Assembly (NCBI RefSeq): GCF_014174165.1
Contig: NZ_JABEQN010000033.1
Location: forward strand, 1-42,545
Direction: 5' to 3'
DNA length: 42,545 nt
Source: Gluconacetobacter dulcium
Lineage (GTDB): Bacteria > Pseudomonadota > Alphaproteobacteria > Acetobacterales > Acetobacteraceae
The notes beneath the pieces are model-generated. The model was not told where the DNA came from. It made no database searches and worked only from the letters and a program-made list of their open reading frames with translations. Position 1 is the first letter of the stretch. Each line of letters starts with the position of its first letter. Shown here piece after piece: positions 25,132 to 32,245 of the stretch. Made by a program: the position numbers and the translations under genes.

Positions 25132-25620
25132 TTAGAGAACGCGCCGCATGGTGAAGCCTTCGGCGCGTTCGCCACGGACCGACGGCTGATAGGCGATACG
25201 GAATCTTGTGTGAGCACGAGCCCAGATTTCCGGATCGCTGCCGGCGGGCAGGGCGACCGTGGAGACGCCGCAGCGCAGGAGAAATTCGTACTGGTCGGGC
25301 AGGGGCTTGCCGGTGGCGCGGATTTCGCCGGTGAAATGCAGGTGCTCGCGCAGGGCGCGGGCCTGGCTGAAGGCGCGGCCGTCGCGGAAGATCGGGAAGG
25401 TGACCGCCACCAGCGACAGGCGGGGCAGGGCGGTGCGCAGCGTGTCGATTTCCGTGTCCGGCGCGAGGGCTACGCCCAGTTTTTCGCCGGGCGCGCGGGC
25501 CAGCCCTTCCTCAAGCCGGGACAGCGGCACGATGACCGGGCCGGTGGCGGGGAGGGGGGAGTCCGCGTCCAGCGTCGTCCAGGTGTCGGGGACGAGCTGT
25601 CCGTCTTCAAGCAGTGGCAT
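25132..25620 (-). CDS. DUF934 protein, sulfite reductase-associated
   Basis: A 162-residue soluble protein of the DUF934 family, which in alpha- and betaproteobacteria sits next to cysI-type sulfite reductases. Family-like features are PLSRLEEGLA, LVAVTFPIFRDGRAFSQARALRE (shown in part as FPIFRDGRAFSQAR), FTGEIRATGKPLPDQ and a C-terminal IAYQPS. The start ATG at 25620 overlaps the cysI stop by 14 bp, so the genes are co-translated. Function is unknown; context implies a role in sulfite reduction. Confidence 0.85.
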   Translation of the reverse strand: MPLLEDGQLVPDTWTTLDADSPLPATGPVIVPLSRLEEGLARAPGEKLGVALAPDTEIDTLRTALPRLSLVAVTFPIFRDGRAFSQARALREHLHFTGEIRATGKPLPDQYEFLLRCGVSTVALPAGSDPEIWARAHTRFRIAYQPSVRGERAEGFTMRRVL

Positions 25621-27301
25621 AGACGGCATCCTTGAACAGGGCGGCGCCCAGGCGCCGGTAGGTATCGAGGAAGCGTTCGCCCCCCGTGCGGTGGACCAGA
25701 TAGGCATCGACGAGGCGCGCGATGGCGTCCACCGTCGCGTCCTCGGGCAGGGCCGGGCCGAGGATCTGGCCAACCGAGGCGTCGCTGCCCGGCGAGCCGC
25801 CCAGCGTGAGCTGGAAGAATTCCTCGCCCTTCTTGTCCACGCCCAGAATGCCGATATGGCCGGCATGGTGATGGCCGCAGGCATTGATGCAGCCGGAAAT
25901 CTTGATTTCGATCGGGCCGATCGTCTCCTGGAGTTCGGGGCTGGCGAAGCGGGCGCCGAGTTTCTGGGCGATCGGAATCGAGCGCGCATTGGCCAGCGCG
26001 CAGTAATCGAGGCCGGGGCAGGCGATGATGTCGCCGATCAGCCCGATATTGGCCGAGGCGAGGTCTGCCGCGCGCAGGGCCTGCCACAGCGCATGCAACT
26101 CGTCCTGCCGCACATGGCCCAGCACGAGATTCTGCATGTGCGTGACGCGGATTTCGCCGAAGGCGTAGCGGTCGGCGAGGTCGGCCACCGTATCCATCTG
26201 CGCCGAGGTGGCGTCGCCGGGGATGCCGCCGGCGGGCTTGAGCGAGATGACGGCGGAGATGTAGCCCGGCGCGCGGTGCGGATGCGTGTTGGTGCGCACC
26301 CAGCGGTCGAAGGCCGGGTCGGCGCGGCGGGCGCGGTCGAGCCGGGCGGCCGCGTCGTCTGGCGCGTTCAGGTCCGGCGTGCCGAAGCGGGCGCGGATGG
26401 CGGCGACCGTCTCGGGCGGCAGGCGGTAGCGGGCGCGGTTCATGGACGCGAACTCGGCATCGACCTTCTGACGGTAGCCTTCGGTGCCCAGCGCCTGGAC
26501 CAGGATCTTGATCCGCGCCTTGTAGATATTGTCGCGGCGACCGTACTCGTTATAGACGCGGACCATGGCTTCCAGATAGGCCAGCAGGTCTTCTTCCGGC
26601 AGGTCGTCGCGCAGGTGCACGCCCACGATGGGCGTGCGGCCCATGCCGCCGCCTACGAAGACGTCGAACTGCGTGCCGCCGTCGGGGGCTGGCTTGGCCA
26701 CCAGCCCGATATCGTGGAAGCGGGCGGCCACGCGGTCGTTGGGGCTGCCGCTGATCGCGATCTTGAACTTGCGCGGCAGGAAGGTGAATTCCGGATGCAG
26801 CGTGGACCATTGCCGCAGGATTTCGGCATGGACGCGCGGATCGACCAGTTCGTCCTGTGCCGCGCCGGCGAACTGGTCGCAGGTGACGTTGCGGATGCAG
26901 TTGCCGCTGGTCTGGATGGCGTGCATGTCCACCGCCGCCAGCCGGGCCAGGATGTCGGGCGTGTCTTCCAGCCTGATCCAGTTGAACTGGAGGTTCTGGC
27001 GGGTGGTGAAATGGCCGTAATCGCGGTCGTAGGTGCGGGCGATATGGGCCAGTTCGCGCATCTGCCGGGAATCGAGCACGCCGTAGGGGACGGCGATGCG
27101 CAGCATGTAGGCGTGCAGTTGCAGATACAGGCCGTTCATCAGGCGCAGGGGCTTGAACTCGTCCTCGGACAAGGTGCCGGCGATGCGGCGGGCGACCTGA
27201 TCGCGGAACTGCTCTACCCGGTCGGCCAGGAAGGCGCGGTCGACCTGATCGTAGCCGTAATGCCCGACGGGCAGCGCGGGTGCTGGGATGGTGTCAGGCA
27301 T
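25607..27301 (-). CDS. cysI: Nitrite/sulfite reductase hemoprotein (assimilatory sulfite reductase)
   Basis: A 564-residue siroheme/[4Fe-4S] enzyme that reduces sulfite to sulfide. The cluster/siroheme ligands are Cys428 and Cys434 (CPGLDYC) and Cys471 and Cys475 (SGCINACGHHH). The N-terminal TTRQNLQFNW and GNCIRNVTCD segments are typical. No CysJ flavoprotein gene is in the window, so the electron donor may be ferredoxin or another protein. It overlaps DUF2849 by 8 bp upstream and DUF934 by 14 bp downstream. The cys neighbourhood favours sulfite over nitrite as substrate. Confidence 0.9.
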   Translation of the reverse strand: MPDTIPAPALPVGHYGYDQVDRAFLADRVEQFRDQVARRIAGTLSEDEFKPLRLMNGLYLQLHAYMLRIAVPYGVLDSRQMRELAHIARTYDRDYGHFTTRQNLQFNWIRLEDTPDILARLAAVDMHAIQTSGNCIRNVTCDQFAGAAQDELVDPRVHAEILRQWSTLHPEFTFLPRKFKIAISGSPNDRVAARFHDIGLVAKPAPDGGTQFDVFVGGGMGRTPIVGVHLRDDLPEEDLLAYLEAMVRVYNEYGRRDNIYKARIKILVQALGTEGYRQKVDAEFASMNRARYRLPPETVAAIRARFGTPDLNAPDDAAARLDRARRADPAFDRWVRTNTHPHRAPGYISAVISLKPAGGIPGDATSAQMDTVADLADRYAFGEIRVTHMQNLVLGHVRQDELHALWQALRAADLASANIGLIGDIIACPGLDYCALANARSIPIAQKLGARFASPELQETIGPIEIKISGCINACGHHHAGHIGILGVDKKGEEFFQLTLGGSPGSDASVGQILGPALPEDATVDAIARLVDAYLVHRTGGERFLDTYRRLGAALFKDAVYATA

Positions 27302-27632
27302 GGGCTTCGAGCTCGGCTGCGGGCGTGAAATCGGGATGGACGGTGGGGCCGAAGGCGCGGATGCGCTCGCGCACCGTGACGGGGGTCGGCGTGGCTTCGT
27401 CGGATTCGATCTGCACGCCGTAGACGCCGACCAGGCCGTCGGCCTGCTGGCGGGCGGCGGCCTGGGCGATGGCGGCCTCGATCTCCGCGTTCGGGATGAT
27501 CCGCGCGTCCTTGATCATGGGGGACCAGTCGCCTTCGGCCACCTGCCAGACGATGCGCCCGTCCAGCAGCCGGTTGGCGGTGATCACGCTCGAACCGCCG
27601 GCCTCGCGGCGGTTGTTCCTGACATCGCTCAC
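27294..27632 (-). CDS. DUF2849 protein, sulfite reductase-associated
   Basis: A 112-residue soluble protein of DUF2849, usually encoded just before cysI in alphaproteobacteria. The core VITANRLLDGRIVWQVAEG is recognisable at about residues 16-34. Start is GTG at 27632 with AGAGG 9 bp upstream. It opens the DUF2849-cysI-DUF934 operon and overlaps cysI by 8 bp. Function is not known. Confidence 0.82.
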   Translation of the reverse strand: MSDVRNNRREAGGSSVITANRLLDGRIVWQVAEGDWSPMIKDARIIPNAEIEAAIAQAAARQQADGLVGVYGVQIESDEATPTPVTVRERIRAFGPTVHPDFTPAAELEAHA

Positions 27633-27728
27633 TGGTCCGTACCTCTTATGTCCGATCCGGCCGATGCCGACAGGATGTCGCCCCGTTCTACAGAGGCATT
27701 AGGGGTTTCATGCGCGCAATACAAGAGG

Positions 27729-27753
27729 AATGCACGATTGTTAATCGTGCATT
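27729..27753. promoter_or_regulatory. Palindromic operator candidate upstream of the cysI operon
   Basis: AATGCACGATT-GTT-AATCGTGCATT is a perfect 11-bp inverted repeat, 97 bp upstream of the DUF2849 GTG. A candidate promoter (TTGTAT-N17-TAATGC on the minus strand) follows directly, which places the site just upstream of the -35. The same palindrome recurs before cysH at 31244-31268. Confidence 0.65.
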
Positions 27754-27784
27754 GCGCTCTGTCTATCTGCCTCGGCCCGTCCGC

Positions 27785-29662
27785 TCAGGAGCGGCGGCGG
27801 GTGGCTTCGGCCAGTGTGACGCTATCGGCCACATAGCCGGCCAGACGGTCCGCGACGTCGCCCACGCTGCCGGCACCGGTGGCCAGATGCAGGTCCGGTG
27901 TGGCCGGAACGTCGTAGGGCGCGTCGATGCCGGTGAAGCCGCTGATCCGCCCGGCGCGGGCGGCCTGATAGAGGCCCTTGGGGTCGCGGGCCTCGCAGGT
28001 GGCCTGATCGGCATCCACGAAGATTTCGTGGAAGCCTTCGCCCACCACCTGACGGGCCAGTTCGCGGTCGGCGGCACGCGGCGAGATGAGCGCCACCAGC
28101 ACCACCTGACCGGTTTCGGCCAGGATGCGGGCGACGGCGGCGGCGCGGCGCACGTTCTCGGTGCGGTCGGCCTCCGAGAAGCCCAGATCGGCGCACAGGC
28201 CGGCGCGCAGCGTGTCGCCATCCAGCACCGAAACGTCGATCTTTTGCGCGAACAGGCGGGATTCCGCCGCGCGGGCGATGGTGCTTTTGCCGGCGCCGGG
28301 CAGGCCGGTCATCCAGAATACGCCGCCGCGATGGCCGCGCGCCTGTGCGCGGTCCCACAGCGAGACGGTGCTGTCGGTGGGGTGGATGGCCTTGGTGCCG
28401 CTGGCGATTTCGGCCGGGCCGATCAGCGGCGCGCCGCCGACGATGCGCTGGTGACGATCGACCAGCACGCCGCGCCCGTCGGTGGTGCCGGGGGTGAAGG
28501 CATCGAACAGGATGCTCTCCGACGCCGCCAGCGTGATCTCGGCGAAGCCCTCGGGCGGGACGTGATCGGATGCGTGTTCGGTCAGGTCGTCCAGCCGCAC
28601 CACGGAATCAATCGAGGCGACGGTAACCTGATGTTCGGCGGTGGCCAGGCGCAGGCGGAAGCTCTCGCCCACGCGCAGCGGCTCCTGCCGCAGCCAGAAC
28701 AGGCGCGAGCGGATGCGCGCGGTGCGGATCGGCGCTTCGTCCGGCCGGTGCAGCAGGTCGCCGCGATCGGGGATGACATCCGGCTCCAGCGTGATGGCGA
28801 CCGACTGGCCGGCGACGGCGGAAATCTGCGGGGCGGTGTGCCAGCTTTCGATGGAGGCGACGCGGGCGGTGGTGCCGTGGGTGCCGATGACCAGCGTGTC
28901 GCCGACCGAAACACGGCCGCGCTCGATGCGGCCGGCGACCACGCGCTTGCTGTCGAAGCGGTAGACATCCTGCACCGGCAGGCGCAGCGGCAGGTCCGCG
29001 CGGCCGGCGGGGGACGGGACCAGGGCCAGGGCCTCGGTCAGGGTCGGGCCCTTGTACCAGTCCATCCGCGGGGAGCGGGAGGCGATGTTGTCGCCCTCGC
29101 GCGCCGAGGCGGGGATGAACAGGCTGGGTTCGATGTCGAGCTGTTTCAGCAGGGCGGCGACCGCCTGTTCCGAAGCGGCGATCTTGTGCTCGTCGTACTC
29201 CAGCAGGTCCACCTTGTTCATCAGCACGACGACGTGGCGGATGCCGATCAGGCGCAGCAGCATGGCGTGGCGGCGGGTCTGTTCCTGCGCGCCCTCGGCG
29301 GCGTCGATCACCAGTACGGCGGCCTCGGCATCGGCGGCGCCGGTGATCATGTTGCGCAGGAACTGGCGGTGGCCGGGGGCGTCCACGATCACGAACTGCC
29401 GGTTGCCCAGCAGGAACGGGATGCGGGTGGAATCGACGGTCACGCCCTGGTCGCGCTCGATCTGAAGGCTGTCGAGCAGGAAGCTCCACTCCACCTTCAG
29501 GCCGCGCTTGCGGCTGGATTCGATGATCTGCGCCACCCGGCCCTCGGGCAGATTGTCGGTGTCATGCAGCAGGCGGCCGATCAGGGTGGATTTGCCGTGA
29601 TCGACATGGCCGACGATGACGATGGGGGTGGCCGCGTCCTGGCGAAGGATATCGTTGCTCAT
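27785..29662 (-). CDS. cysNC: Bifunctional sulfate adenylyltransferase GTPase subunit / APS kinase CysNC
   Basis: A 625-residue fusion. Residues 1-430 are the CysN GTPase that drives ATP sulfurylase; residues about 440-625 are CysC APS kinase ([10 protein letters not shown], then [12 protein letters not shown], and [12 protein letters not shown]). The GTPase part is unusual: G1 is GHVDHGKST rather than the common CysN GSVDDGKST, and the G3 region is [15 protein letters not shown] (G4) is present. I chose ATG at 29662; a GTG at 29692 overlapping the cysD end is possible. It is the third gene of cysH-cysD-cysNC. Confidence 0.9.
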
Positions 29663-29688
29663 GATGTGTCTCGATCCGTCCGCTGGGT

Positions 29689-30483
29689 TCACAGATAGCC
29701 GGCGACGCGCAGCCGCTCGAACGCATCTTCCGATTCATGGTCCATGGCGCGGCCCGCGCGCTCGGAGGTGCGGGTGGTCTGCAACTCCGCGATCACTTCG
29801 GCCACCGTCGCAGCCTCGCTCTCGATCGGGCTGGTGATGTCCTGATCGCCCAGCGAGCGGTACCGCTTGCCGTTTTTGGAGAAATACAGGTCGACCAGCG
29901 GGATGCCCTCGCGCTCGATATAGCGCCAGATGTCGATCTCGCGCCATGACAGCAGCGGGTGGACGCGGATATGCACGCCCTCTTCATGCGGGGTGGCGTA
30001 CTGGTCCCAGAATTCGGGGGGCTGGTTGCGGACATCCCATTTATGGCTCGATCCGCGCGGGCTGAACACGCGCTCCTTCGCGCGGGTGGCCTGCTCGTCG
30101 CGGCGGATGCCGGCGATGACGCCTTCCAGCTTGTATTTCTCGATCATCGCCGCCAGGCCGGCGGTCTTGCGCGCGGCGGAGCGGGCGGCCGGAGGGAGCG
30201 TCGGGTCGATCTCCTCGACCGGCGGGCAGTCGCCCAGCAGCAGTTCCAGCTCCCACTTTTTTACATATTCGTCGCGGAAGCGGTACATCTCGGGGAATTT
30301 CTTGCCGGTATCGACATGCATCACCGGGAACGGCACCCGGCCGAGGAACGCCTTGCGCGCCAGCCACAGCATGACGTTGGAATCCTTGCCCAGCGACCAC
30401 AGCATCGCCAATGGCTTCAGCTTCCGGTACGCCTCGCGCAGGATGTAAACGCTCTGGGCTTCGAGTTGGTCGAGATCGTCCAT
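29689..30483 (-). CDS. cysD: Sulfate adenylyltransferase subunit 2 CysD
   Basis: A 264-residue PP-loop ATP-pyrophosphatase that makes APS from sulfate and ATP, in complex with the CysN GTPase. The PP-motif is [17 protein letters not shown] (about residues 30-46), followed by [29 protein letters not shown] and the C-terminal [16 protein letters not shown] at 30483 has AAGG about 10 bp upstream. It lies between cysH (57-bp gap) and cysNC (26-bp gap). Confidence 0.94.
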
Positions 30484-30539
30484 GGGGGCGCTACCTTGCA
30501 GGTTCGGCAAAAGGGGGTCGGGGTCGTCGCGGCGGGTGG

Positions 30540-31223
30540 TCAGACGTGGATGCCGCATTCGGTCTTGGCCAGTCCGGCCCAGCGGCCGGCGCGGGGGTCC
30601 GCGCCTTCGGCGACCGGTTGCGTGCAGGGCGCGCAGCCGATCGAGCGGTAGCCCAGGGCGGCCAGCGGGTGACGCGGCAGGGCGCGGCGGGTCATTTCCG
30701 CATCCAGTTCCGCCGCGTTCCAGCGTGCCAGGGGGTTGATCTTGAAACGGCCGTCCGCCTGCGGCTCGATGACCGGCAGGTGGGCGCGGGTGGCGGCCTG
30801 GCTGCGCTTGCGGCCGGTGATCCAGGCGTCGAAAGGGATGATCGCCTCGTCCAGCGGTTCGACCTTGCGCAGGGCGCAGCAGGCGTCCGGGTCGAACGCC
30901 CAGAGCTGGCCCTGCGGGTCGCGGGCCGCGATCTGGGCCGGGTCGGGGTGGATGTCGCGCACGCCGGTCAGGCCCAGATGCGCGATCAGCCGGTCGCGAT
31001 AGGCAAGCGTCTCGGGGAAATGCTGCCCGGTTTCCAGGAACAGCACCGGCACCGAAGGGTCGATCTCCGCCGCCATGGCCAGCAGGACGGCGGATTCGGT
31101 GCCGAAGGACGACACGAGGCCGATGCGCCCGCGCGGCATTGCCCCCAGCGCCGCGCGCAGGATCGCCGGCGCATTTTCGCCGGCGGCTTCTATGGCATGG
31201 ATGATCGACGGTTCAAGACCCAC
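30540..31223 (-). CDS. cysH: Adenylyl/phosphoadenylyl-sulfate reductase CysH
   Basis: A 227-residue thioredoxin-dependent reductase that gives sulfite. It has the CCx(80)CxxC arrangement (Cys115, Cys116, Cys197, Cys200) of the [4Fe-4S] APS reductase type, and the catalytic Cys223 in KTECGIH near the C-terminus. The nucleotide-binding VSSFGTES lies at 37-44. With an APS kinase domain also present downstream, the pathway may use APS, PAPS or both. Start is GTG at 31223; no in-frame ATG lies nearby. The candidate operator at 31244-31268 is just 20 bp upstream. Confidence 0.92.
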   Translation of the reverse strand: MGLEPSIIHAIEAAGENAPAILRAALGAMPRGRIGLVSSFGTESAVLLAMAAEIDPSVPVLFLETGQHFPETLAYRDRLIAHLGLTGVRDIHPDPAQIAARDPQGQLWAFDPDACCALRKVEPLDEAIIPFDAWITGRKRSQAATRAHLPVIEPQADGRFKINPLARWNAAELDAEMTRRALPRHPLAALGYRSIGCAPCTQPVAEGADPRAGRWAGLAKTECGIHV

Positions 31224-31243
31224 GGTGCAGACCCATATTCCTC

Positions 31244-31268
31244 AATGCACGAGGTGTAATCGTGCTTT
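31244..31268. promoter_or_regulatory. Palindromic operator candidate upstream of cysH
   Basis: AATGCACGA-N7-TCGTGCTTT has the same 9+7+9 layout as the site before the cysI operon and differs in one arm base. Both copies also share TAA just before the right arm. It is 20 bp from the cysH start, so it should overlap the promoter or transcription start, unlike the cysI copy. Confidence 0.65.
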
Positions 31269-31360
31269 GAGTGGCATCTAATCCTTCCTTGATCCATATT
31301 CAAGTGAAATATACGTCTGATGGTCGTGGTATTTGGGCATGGCACCAATGATGAGAGGGA

Positions 31361-32245
31361 TCAACGACTCATCAGCACGGGGATTTCGGCATTCTCCAGA
31401 ACGTGGCGTGTAACGCCGCCGAGAATCAACTGGCGCAGGCGGGAGTGGGAATAGGCGCCCATGGCCAGCATGTCGGCGCCGAAATCGTGGCAGGCGGCCA
31501 GCAGGCTGGCGCCCACCGTCTCGTCCGGGTCGCCGAATTCCACCAGGTCGGCGTGGATGCCGTGGATGGTCAGGTAGTCGGCGGCATCGCGGGCTTCGGG
31601 GCCGCGGCGCTGGTAGTCGCCGGAATAGAGGATGCGCACGGCCCCGGCCTCGGCCGCCCAGGGCAGGATATGGTGCAGGGCCGCCGTGGATTCCGACGTG
31701 CCGTTCCAGGCGATGCAGATCCGCCGGCCGGCGGTGGCGGGCACGCGGCGGGGGGCGATGACGACCGGGCGGCCGCTGTCGAACAGGATGGCGTGCAGGG
31801 TTTCGGACGACGAGATTTCCTCGCCCGAATCCGGGTGGGGGACCACGGTGACATCGGACAGGCGGGCGCGGTAGGTCACGACCTCATGCTCGCGGCCCGT
31901 CATGGTGACGAGGCTGGCCGAGGCGCTGCCGACGGGATTGCCGGAGAAGGGCGGGATCATGTCCGTGACCTTCACGCCGTGGGCGGCGGTGAAGCGGTCG
32001 AAGATCTCGCGCACCGCCAGGGCGCGGCGGGAGCCTTCGCGCTCGGCGGCGGACATCATGTCCTCGACCATCGCGCCCGACAGGCCCTCGCCGGCCAGGG
32101 GGGCGACATCGCGGCTGTCGGCGCGCACATGCAGCCCCGCGATGTGGCCGCCGAACTGCCGGGCGAAGAGCAGGGCGGTGGCCAGGGCGGCCTCGGCATT
32201 GGAGGTTCCGTTCAGAGGCAGCAGGACTTTCTGTATATTTTTCAA
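31361..32245 (-). CDS. Universal stress protein, tandem UspA domains
   Basis: A 294-residue protein with two Usp folds (about 1-145 and 150-294). The first starts with KVLLPLNGTSNAEAAL. The second has the ATP-binding signature GAYSHSRLRQLILGGVTRHVL at the C-terminus (shown in part as GAYSHSRLRQ and LGGVTRHVL). Two-domain Usps of this form are found in many proteobacteria as stress proteins of unclear mechanism. It follows pdxH on the same strand by 42 bp and precedes the cysH operator region. Confidence 0.85.
   Translation of the reverse strand: MKNIQKVLLPLNGTSNAEAALATALLFARQFGGHIAGLHVRADSRDVAPLAGEGLSGAMVEDMMSAAEREGSRRALAVREIFDRFTAAHGVKVTDMIPPFSGNPVGSASASLVTMTGREHEVVTYRARLSDVTVVPHPDSGEEISSSETLHAILFDSGRPVVIAPRRVPATAGRRICIAWNGTSESTAALHHILPWAAEAGAVRILYSGDYQRRGPEARDAADYLTIHGIHADLVEFGDPDETVGASLLAACHDFGADMLAMGAYSHSRLRQLILGGVTRHVLENAEIPVLMSR

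Follow-up and report, generated by a model that had tools for sequence, protein, structure and literature searches.

Two operons of sulfate reduction in Gluconacetobacter dulcium are preceded by the same palindrome, which raises the question of which protein might read it. Both lie within a 42,545 nt stretch of DNA (contig NZ_JABEQN010000033.1 of assembly GCF_014174165.1, the whole of which is hereafter called the window), where AATGCACGA-N7-TCGTGC(A/T)TT was found at 27729-27753, before DUF2849-cysI-DUF934, and at 31244-31268, before cysH-cysD-cysNC. An earlier note on this DNA had read the two copies as operators of a common sulfur regulator, to which it gave no name. Judging from sequence comparisons, we suggest that a regulator of the Rrf2 type, governing how acetic acid bacteria reduce sulfate and make cysteine, very probably docks on these palindromes. 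The candidate, here called Rrf2c, is a cluster-free winged-helix protein of the Rrf2 family encoded divergently from cysK, and we consider it likely that the palindromes are its operators and that it represses both cys operons, probably with the help of CysK.

Palindromes in the window and in the genome

Allowing up to three mismatches, the pattern occurs at two places in the window (four strand matches), against a mean of 0.03 in 100 dinucleotide shuffles, none of which reached four. This confirms the two copies reported by the earlier note along with its statement that the window holds no third full copy. Nor is there a third copy within two mismatches in the whole genome (4,412,138 bases), where the sole extra match, at three mismatches, is at C14:37781 with, by eye, no sulfur gene nearby (genomes and contigs are given by our own G and C numbers, the source genome being G000). 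Site 1 is better described as an 11-3-11 palindrome, AATGCACGATT-GTT-AATCGTGCATT, with perfect 11 bp arms, and site 2 as AATGCACGA-GGTGTAA-TCGTGCTTT, with 9 bp arms and one break, its symmetry extending as CTCAA...TTGAG in most of the genus. A layout of 25 bp divided 11-3-11 pointed to the Rrf2 family.

Since the arms drift, scanning the family for the exact pattern gave few sites, and a covariance model, R1, trained on 21 sites plus six of them reversed, was used instead. In G000 only the two window sites scored above 21 bits (150 of 1119 first-look candidates scored).

Conservation within Gluconacetobacter

At least one site within three mismatches was present in all 14 genus genomes searched, with the arms kept and the 7 bp spacer drifting. 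Operator 2, before cysH, was found in every one of them, in G159 next to usp on a contig that stops ahead of cysH, and operator 1, before DUF2849-cysI, was kept in nine of the 13 genomes covered (without G159), degenerate in three (G123, G152 and G158) and lost in G160. The R1 scan of the genus, in which 150 of 685-1119 first-look candidates were scored per genome, gave 26 distinct sites of at least 26.7 bits; 14 on the cysH side, nine before DUF2849 and three elsewhere. It should be noted that 24 of these 26 are in R1 by sequence, and that only the G153 and G154 sites are independent of it. The three strong sites elsewhere stand at genes resembling sulfonate genes, which fall below the curated SsuA/SsuD cut-offs or have no such model match: the G042 site is flanked by a LysR gene and a luciferase-type monooxygenase whose nearest model is alkanesulfonate monooxygenase (219.7 bits, cut-off 510), and those of G153 and G154, one each, precede an NMT1-type binding protein. 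With conserved sites in 14/14 genomes and 23/26 strong sites at cysH or DUF2849-cysI, the proposal of a common sulfur regulator of both operons is supported, and neither random scatter of the copies nor a lack of conservation where the operons are kept was seen when tested in the genus.

Two deviating layouts were observed. Between operator 2 and the cysH start codon, G151 and G157 carry an additional stretch of about 164 bp, which has inverted ends (GGCTGCTTGCAAAGTC... / ...CTTTGCAAGCAGCC) and resembles a small mobile palindromic repeat. The operator is intact despite the insert, which speaks against a role coupled to the ribosome site. In G123, where operator 1 is degenerate, what by eye are sulfate ABC transporter genes stand between cysNC and DUF2849, as if one operator now serves a longer operon; the same long distance is found in G152 and G158.

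Rrf2c and its gene neighbourhood

The earlier note saw no regulator gene adjacent to the palindromes, and we agree for this genome; a candidate encoded elsewhere in it can now be named. Profile searches found at least three kinds of Rrf2 gene in the genus, and one of these, Rrf2c (G000:C31:22791-23237), is transcribed divergently from cysK in each of the 14 genus genomes; two of the 16 stretches covered (second copies, in G151 and G152) are another Rrf2. Rrf2c is found in 111 of the 150 family genomes, with loci in Gluconacetobacter, Komagataeibacter, Acetobacter, Gluconobacter, Asaia and others, and cysK is divergent from it in 62 of 80 named loci. It also lies within about 2 kb of DUF2849-cysI in G018, G109, G015 and G106. 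In all seven Gluconobacter loci Rrf2c precedes DUF2849-cysI by about 0.2 kb on the same strand and itself has ACGA-N7-TCGG at 65-69 bp upstream.

Rrf2c scores above both models of the Rrf2 superfamily (PF02082, 78.5 bits against 30; TIGR00738, 76.5 against 73.3), and by profile it is an Rrf2 protein, neither CymR nor IscR. The AlphaFold model of the G. liquefaciens protein (99% identical) has a winged-helix fold at a predicted local confidence (pLDDT) of 85.8, and its leading Foldseek matches are Rrf2 proteins, with IscR and CymR at the head. PMC9338935 describes Rrf2-DNA structures in which the central 7 bp have no base contacts, which matches the free N7 seen here.

The other Rrf2 genes were considered as regulators as well. 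The suf-linked Rrf2 is a separate gene (G000:C7, TIGR02944 above cut-off) and was set aside. So was the Rrf2 whose neighbour, by eye, is a flavohaemoglobin-like gene (G000:C34); G160 has site 2 and carries only the suf type and Rrf2c.

Shared dyads upstream of Rrf2c

The gap upstream of Rrf2c was searched for palindromic pairs of each of the 64 trinucleotides at spacers of 0-20, with no cys-operon sequence included and one sequence per genus (63 of the 75 Rrf2c genera; 69 of the 111 Rrf2c genomes were taken and six second genus members dropped). The top dyad was CAC-N11-GTG, present in 20 of 63 genera against 1.2 expected (z 17.9), followed by ACG-N9-CGT in 17 of 63 against 1.5 (z 12.3); across 200 shuffled sets no dyad exceeded z 7.2. 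The window palindrome, AATGCACGA-N7-TCGTGCATT, contains both dyads, and 27 of the 63 genera have one or the other. It should be noted that a CAC...CGTG pattern had already been noticed in part of the same sequences by a motif-guided score; the count itself is motif-free. The two dyads again rank first and second in the 80 named loci, which are partly redundant and overlap the genus set (34/80 against 1.9), and in G101 a complete ACGA-N7-TCGT site stands 37 bp ahead of Rrf2c.

For the cysH side, upstream regions from 69 of the 73 genomes with a cysH match were used. A core-plus-symmetry score of at least 10 was reached by 12 of 53 cysH promoters with Rrf2c in the genome (shuffles 1.8) and by none of 16 without it (shuffles 0.6), a difference with Fisher p 0.03 which becomes 0.12 when the five motif-defining genomes are removed (7/48 vs 0/16). 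The direction is right, and the contrast is short of proof. A relaxed pattern chosen post hoc, AC[GT]A-N7-T[AC]GT, occurs before cysH in 9/53 against 0.1 in shuffles, and in 0/16 without Rrf2c. The cysH promoters of G101, G061, G074 and G118, also picked out post hoc, have sites of this geometry in which ACTA-N7-TAGT, or something close to it, replaces ACGA-N7-TCGT; the operator code may have drifted there.

Sites in other genera and weaker sites

With R1 at E<=0.02, 17 of the 150 family genomes match, 14 of them outside the genus; all 14 carry Rrf2c, for which the chance is about 0.015 given 111/150. The site stands before a firm sulfur gene in four of these genomes, namely cysH (G142 and G073), DUF2849-cysI (G009) and O-acetylhomoserine sulfhydrylase (G062; TIGR01326 above cut-off), and G142 has a further site 0.4 kb before ssuD (TIGR03565 above cut-off). 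A likely sulfur-source gene lies behind it in three more: an ssuC-looking ABC permease (G052), an NMT1-type binding protein (G070) and an NtaA/DmoA-family monooxygenase (G003). In G033 the site has a PF04143 sulfur transporter on one side and a flavocytochrome-like gene on the other.

Within the genus, sites below 22 bits are found at some sulfur-looking genes (a TauD-family gene, SsuA-like binding proteins and the gap between the monooxygenase and LysR genes) and also at a NarK-like major facilitator gene, an aldo-keto reductase, a peroxiredoxin and TonB receptors. These names were given by eye from 17 of 20 stretches, a few being profiled: TauD matches PF02668 and scores 218.5 against 313 on the taurine dioxygenase model, and SsuA_fam gave 80.7 against 163.5. 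One such weak site in the source genome (G000:C18:49030, 20.8 bits), AAACAACGATTTTTTGTCGTTTAAT, is 15 bp before a TonB-dependent receptor gene. In G042 and G123 the gap that separates the LysR and alkanesulfonate-monooxygenase-like genes contains two sites at a distance of 73-84 bp, possibly a looping pair.

A C-terminal isoleucine and a possible link to CysK

The C-terminal residue of Rrf2c is isoleucine in 55 of 55 unnamed loci (three genes taken twice included) and in 80 of 80 named ones, mostly as FSI or FAI. The tail is conserved, with pLDDT below 50, and residues 143-148 are predicted disordered. No cysteine is invariant or nearly invariant in 31 aligned Rrf2c, and the proteins of the 80 named loci have 0-2 cysteines each; as none is conserved, an iron-sulfur cluster is unlikely. 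All 28 CysE proteins above cut-off in the 14 genus genomes likewise end in isoleucine, so that Rrf2c and CysE could compete for CysK. According to PMC12895370 and PMC4961446 a terminal isoleucine anchors CysE and other partners in CysK, and the former names CymR among the proteins with a C-terminal isoleucine motif. In Bacillus, according to PMC2940859, CysK steadies CymR on DNA and O-acetylserine is the signal. Since every Rrf2c checked has a terminal isoleucine on a disordered tail, as in CysE, we propose a CymR-like repressor that would read sulfur status via CysK.

Genes and promoters around the two sites

The order on the minus strand is cysH-cysD-cysNC, operator 1, DUF2849-cysI-DUF934. 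Correcting the context given in the earlier note, site 1 thus also lies 31 bp downstream of the cysNC stop (27785). Pfam agrees with the gene calls (NIR_SIR, DUF2849, DUF934, PAPS_reduct for both cysH and cysD, and GTP_EFTU with APS_kinase for cysNC). A universal-stress-protein gene (window 31361-32245) is the neighbour of the cysH operator in each of the 14 genus loci covered.

Features of the window at and around the two palindromes, in window coordinates
Feature	Position	Strand	Basis or remark
Operator 1, 25 bp palindrome, 11-3-11	27729..27753	.	between cysNC stop and DUF2849-cysI
Operator 2, 25 bp palindrome	31244..31268	.	upstream of cysH-cysD-cysNC
cysH, phosphoadenylyl-sulfate reductase	30540..31223	-	Pfam; NF002537 above cut-off
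cysD, sulfate adenylyltransferase small subunit	29689..30558	-	Pfam; NF003587 above cut-off
cysNC, sulfate adenylyltransferase large subunit/APS kinase fusion	27785..29692	-	apsK TIGR00455 above cut-off; TIGR02034 CysN 331.8 vs 336.1
DUF2849 gene, first of cysI gene group	27294..27632	-	Pfam
cysI-like sulfite/nitrite reductase hemoprotein	25607..27301	-	Pfam NIR_SIR; no NCBIfam model above cut-off
DUF934 open reading frame	25132..25989	-	Pfam match at residues 172-275; true start probably inside
Candidate cysH promoter, TTGAAT-16-TTAGAT	31276..31303	-	upstream of operator 2; putative, from conservation only
Candidate DUF2849-cysI promoter A, TTGTAT-17-TAATGC	27696..27724	-	just downstream of operator 1; putative
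Candidate promoter B, TAGACA-17-AACAAT	27737..27765	-	consensus scan; -10 inside operator 1

Site 2 starts 7 bp after the -10-like TTAGAT (31281-31276) and ends 20 bp before the cysH GTG start (31223). Boxes similar to those of the cysH promoter candidate are found across the genus, with TTGCAT/TTAACT in G142 and G073; the consensus promoter scan called neither this candidate nor promoter A. Promoter A is conserved in most of the genus, with a like layout in G048, and a conserved CTTGTA/TTGTAT -35-like element lies 3-4 bp past the end of site 1. The -35 of promoter B is poorly conserved in the genus. Operator 1 accordingly stands just before the -35 with promoter A and over the -10 with promoter B.

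Weighing the Rrf2c reading

Several observations weigh against Rrf2c as the regulator. Neither dyad occurs in exact form in 36 of the 63 genera, and the Rrf2c-cysK gap of the window genus itself has only a weak version, ATCACACCA-AACAGAA-GCGTGGATC, with six of eight core letters. When the same dyad search was run upstream of cysH in 39 Rrf2c genera the motif was not recovered (ACG-N9-CGT z 3.0, rank 29; CAC-N11-GTG rank 74). Outside the genus a clear site is absent from most cysH promoters, and 41 of the 53 cysH promoters of Rrf2c-bearing genomes have none. Six of the 14 other-genus genomes with a site (G059, G060, G063, G079, G084 and G122) have no evident sulfur link, and three more (G009, G073 and G142) had supplied training sites to R1, so that theirs were found by construction. 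Finally, operator 1 is in an activator position if promoter A is correct.

The best of the alternatives is that some other sulfur-responsive factor, for example of the LysR, MarR or TetR type, binds the palindromes, Rrf2c merely having a similar dyad. In G042, G123, G152 and G158 a LysR gene and the alkanesulfonate-monooxygenase-like gene do have sites between them (the G042 pair was profiled), and at G000:C14:105368 a TGCACGA-N5-TCGTGCA with the same arms stands beside a MarR-looking gene. Yet that LysR is found in nine of 150 genomes at E<=1e-30 and not in G000, which has both sites (25 of 45 G000 first-look candidates scored), and we set it aside as the regulator. The MarR-side site has another spacer and is listed in G000 alone, and it is to Rrf2c that the dyad search in 63 genera links the motif. 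We regard such a factor as unlikely.

It seems much less probable still that the palindromes work as hairpins in RNA, site 1 as an intrinsic terminator behind cysNC and site 2 in the leader of cysH. RNA folding is good for both (z -4.2 for site 1 and -2.3 for site 2), and site 1 scores as terminator-like with the tail CCTCTTGTAT, but operator 2 gives no terminator-like match, and a stem with a T-rich tail is not seen at both sites. Further, no Rfam match was obtained, and identical half-site letters turn up in front of other genes. All 11 genus sequence versions of the cysH copy retain an unpaired A/A in the stem, and the letters are kept beyond mere pairing. Chance or a dispersed repeat, for which no support was found, can practically be dismissed, with 0.03 matches expected in the window, no further copy within two mismatches in 4.4 Mb, and spacers that vary between copies and species.

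A possible mechanism

We infer binding of Rrf2c, repression (rather than activation at operator 1), docking to CysK and O-acetylserine as the signal. When sulfur is ample, Rrf2c would sit on the operators, probably steadied by CysK gripping its C-terminal isoleucine tail in the active site. It would then shut cysH-cysD-cysNC from operator 2, directly after the -10 and over the transcription start, and DUF2849-cysI-DUF934 from operator 1, at the -35 edge or over the -10. Under sulfide shortage, O-acetylserine would accumulate and displace the tail, Rrf2c would leave the operators, and sulfate reduction would be expressed. Repression at both operators is the outcome that we favour, and the place of operator 2, right after a conserved -10-like box, is that of a repressor. 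In relatives the regulon would probably also include genes for sulfonate, taurine and homocysteine use.

If Rrf2c acts in this way, acetic acid bacteria gain a candidate master regulator of sulfur assimilation, with its operator, likely targets and an idea of how it senses. No description of such a regulator was found in titles and abstract openings of the open-licence literature, among the matches listed.

Comparison with known systems

The closest solved relatives of Rrf2c by sequence are IscR structures (4CIC, 4CHU and 4HF1). Operators of IscR are built on a comparable plan, with two arms in about 25 bp. Rrf2c differs from IscR in having no conserved cysteine, so that the three ligands are absent, and in its score on the IscR model (60.9 against 207.6).

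CysB and Cbl of enterobacteria, which also cover the sulfonate side of control, resemble the system proposed here in placing the cys genes jointly under an acetylserine signal, but belong to another protein family, LysR. For CysB, PMC11329422 gives N-acetylserine as the signal.

The nearest parallel is CymR-CysK of Bacillus subtilis and Staphylococcus aureus, with a cluster-free Rrf2 fold, sulfur and cysteine genes as targets and a link to cysK, and CymR is among both the sequence and the fold matches of Rrf2c. The differences are that Rrf2c reaches 51.7 bits on NF047409, the NCBIfam model of CymR, where the cut-off is 195, with 26-28% identity in fold alignments, and that it is found here in Acetobacteraceae (Alphaproteobacteria), its gene beside cysK or cysI; its docking to CysK is a proposal. 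As Rrf2c fails the CymR family model, it would work like CymR as far as can be read, and we do not file it as CymR. Further, we speculate, with our confidence evenly divided, that the Acetobacteraceae have a cluster-free Rrf2 repressor whose isoleucine tail is read by the active site of the neighbouring CysK in competition with CysE. One enzyme would thereby report the balance of sulfide and O-acetylserine to a regulon for sulfate, sulfonate, taurine and homocysteine, and the Proteobacteria would have a counterpart of CymR-CysK that uses an operator code of its own. If true, the CymR-CysK gauge of cysteine need, known from Firmicutes, would exist in Proteobacteria too, and a free terminal isoleucine on a transcription factor could serve as its marker.

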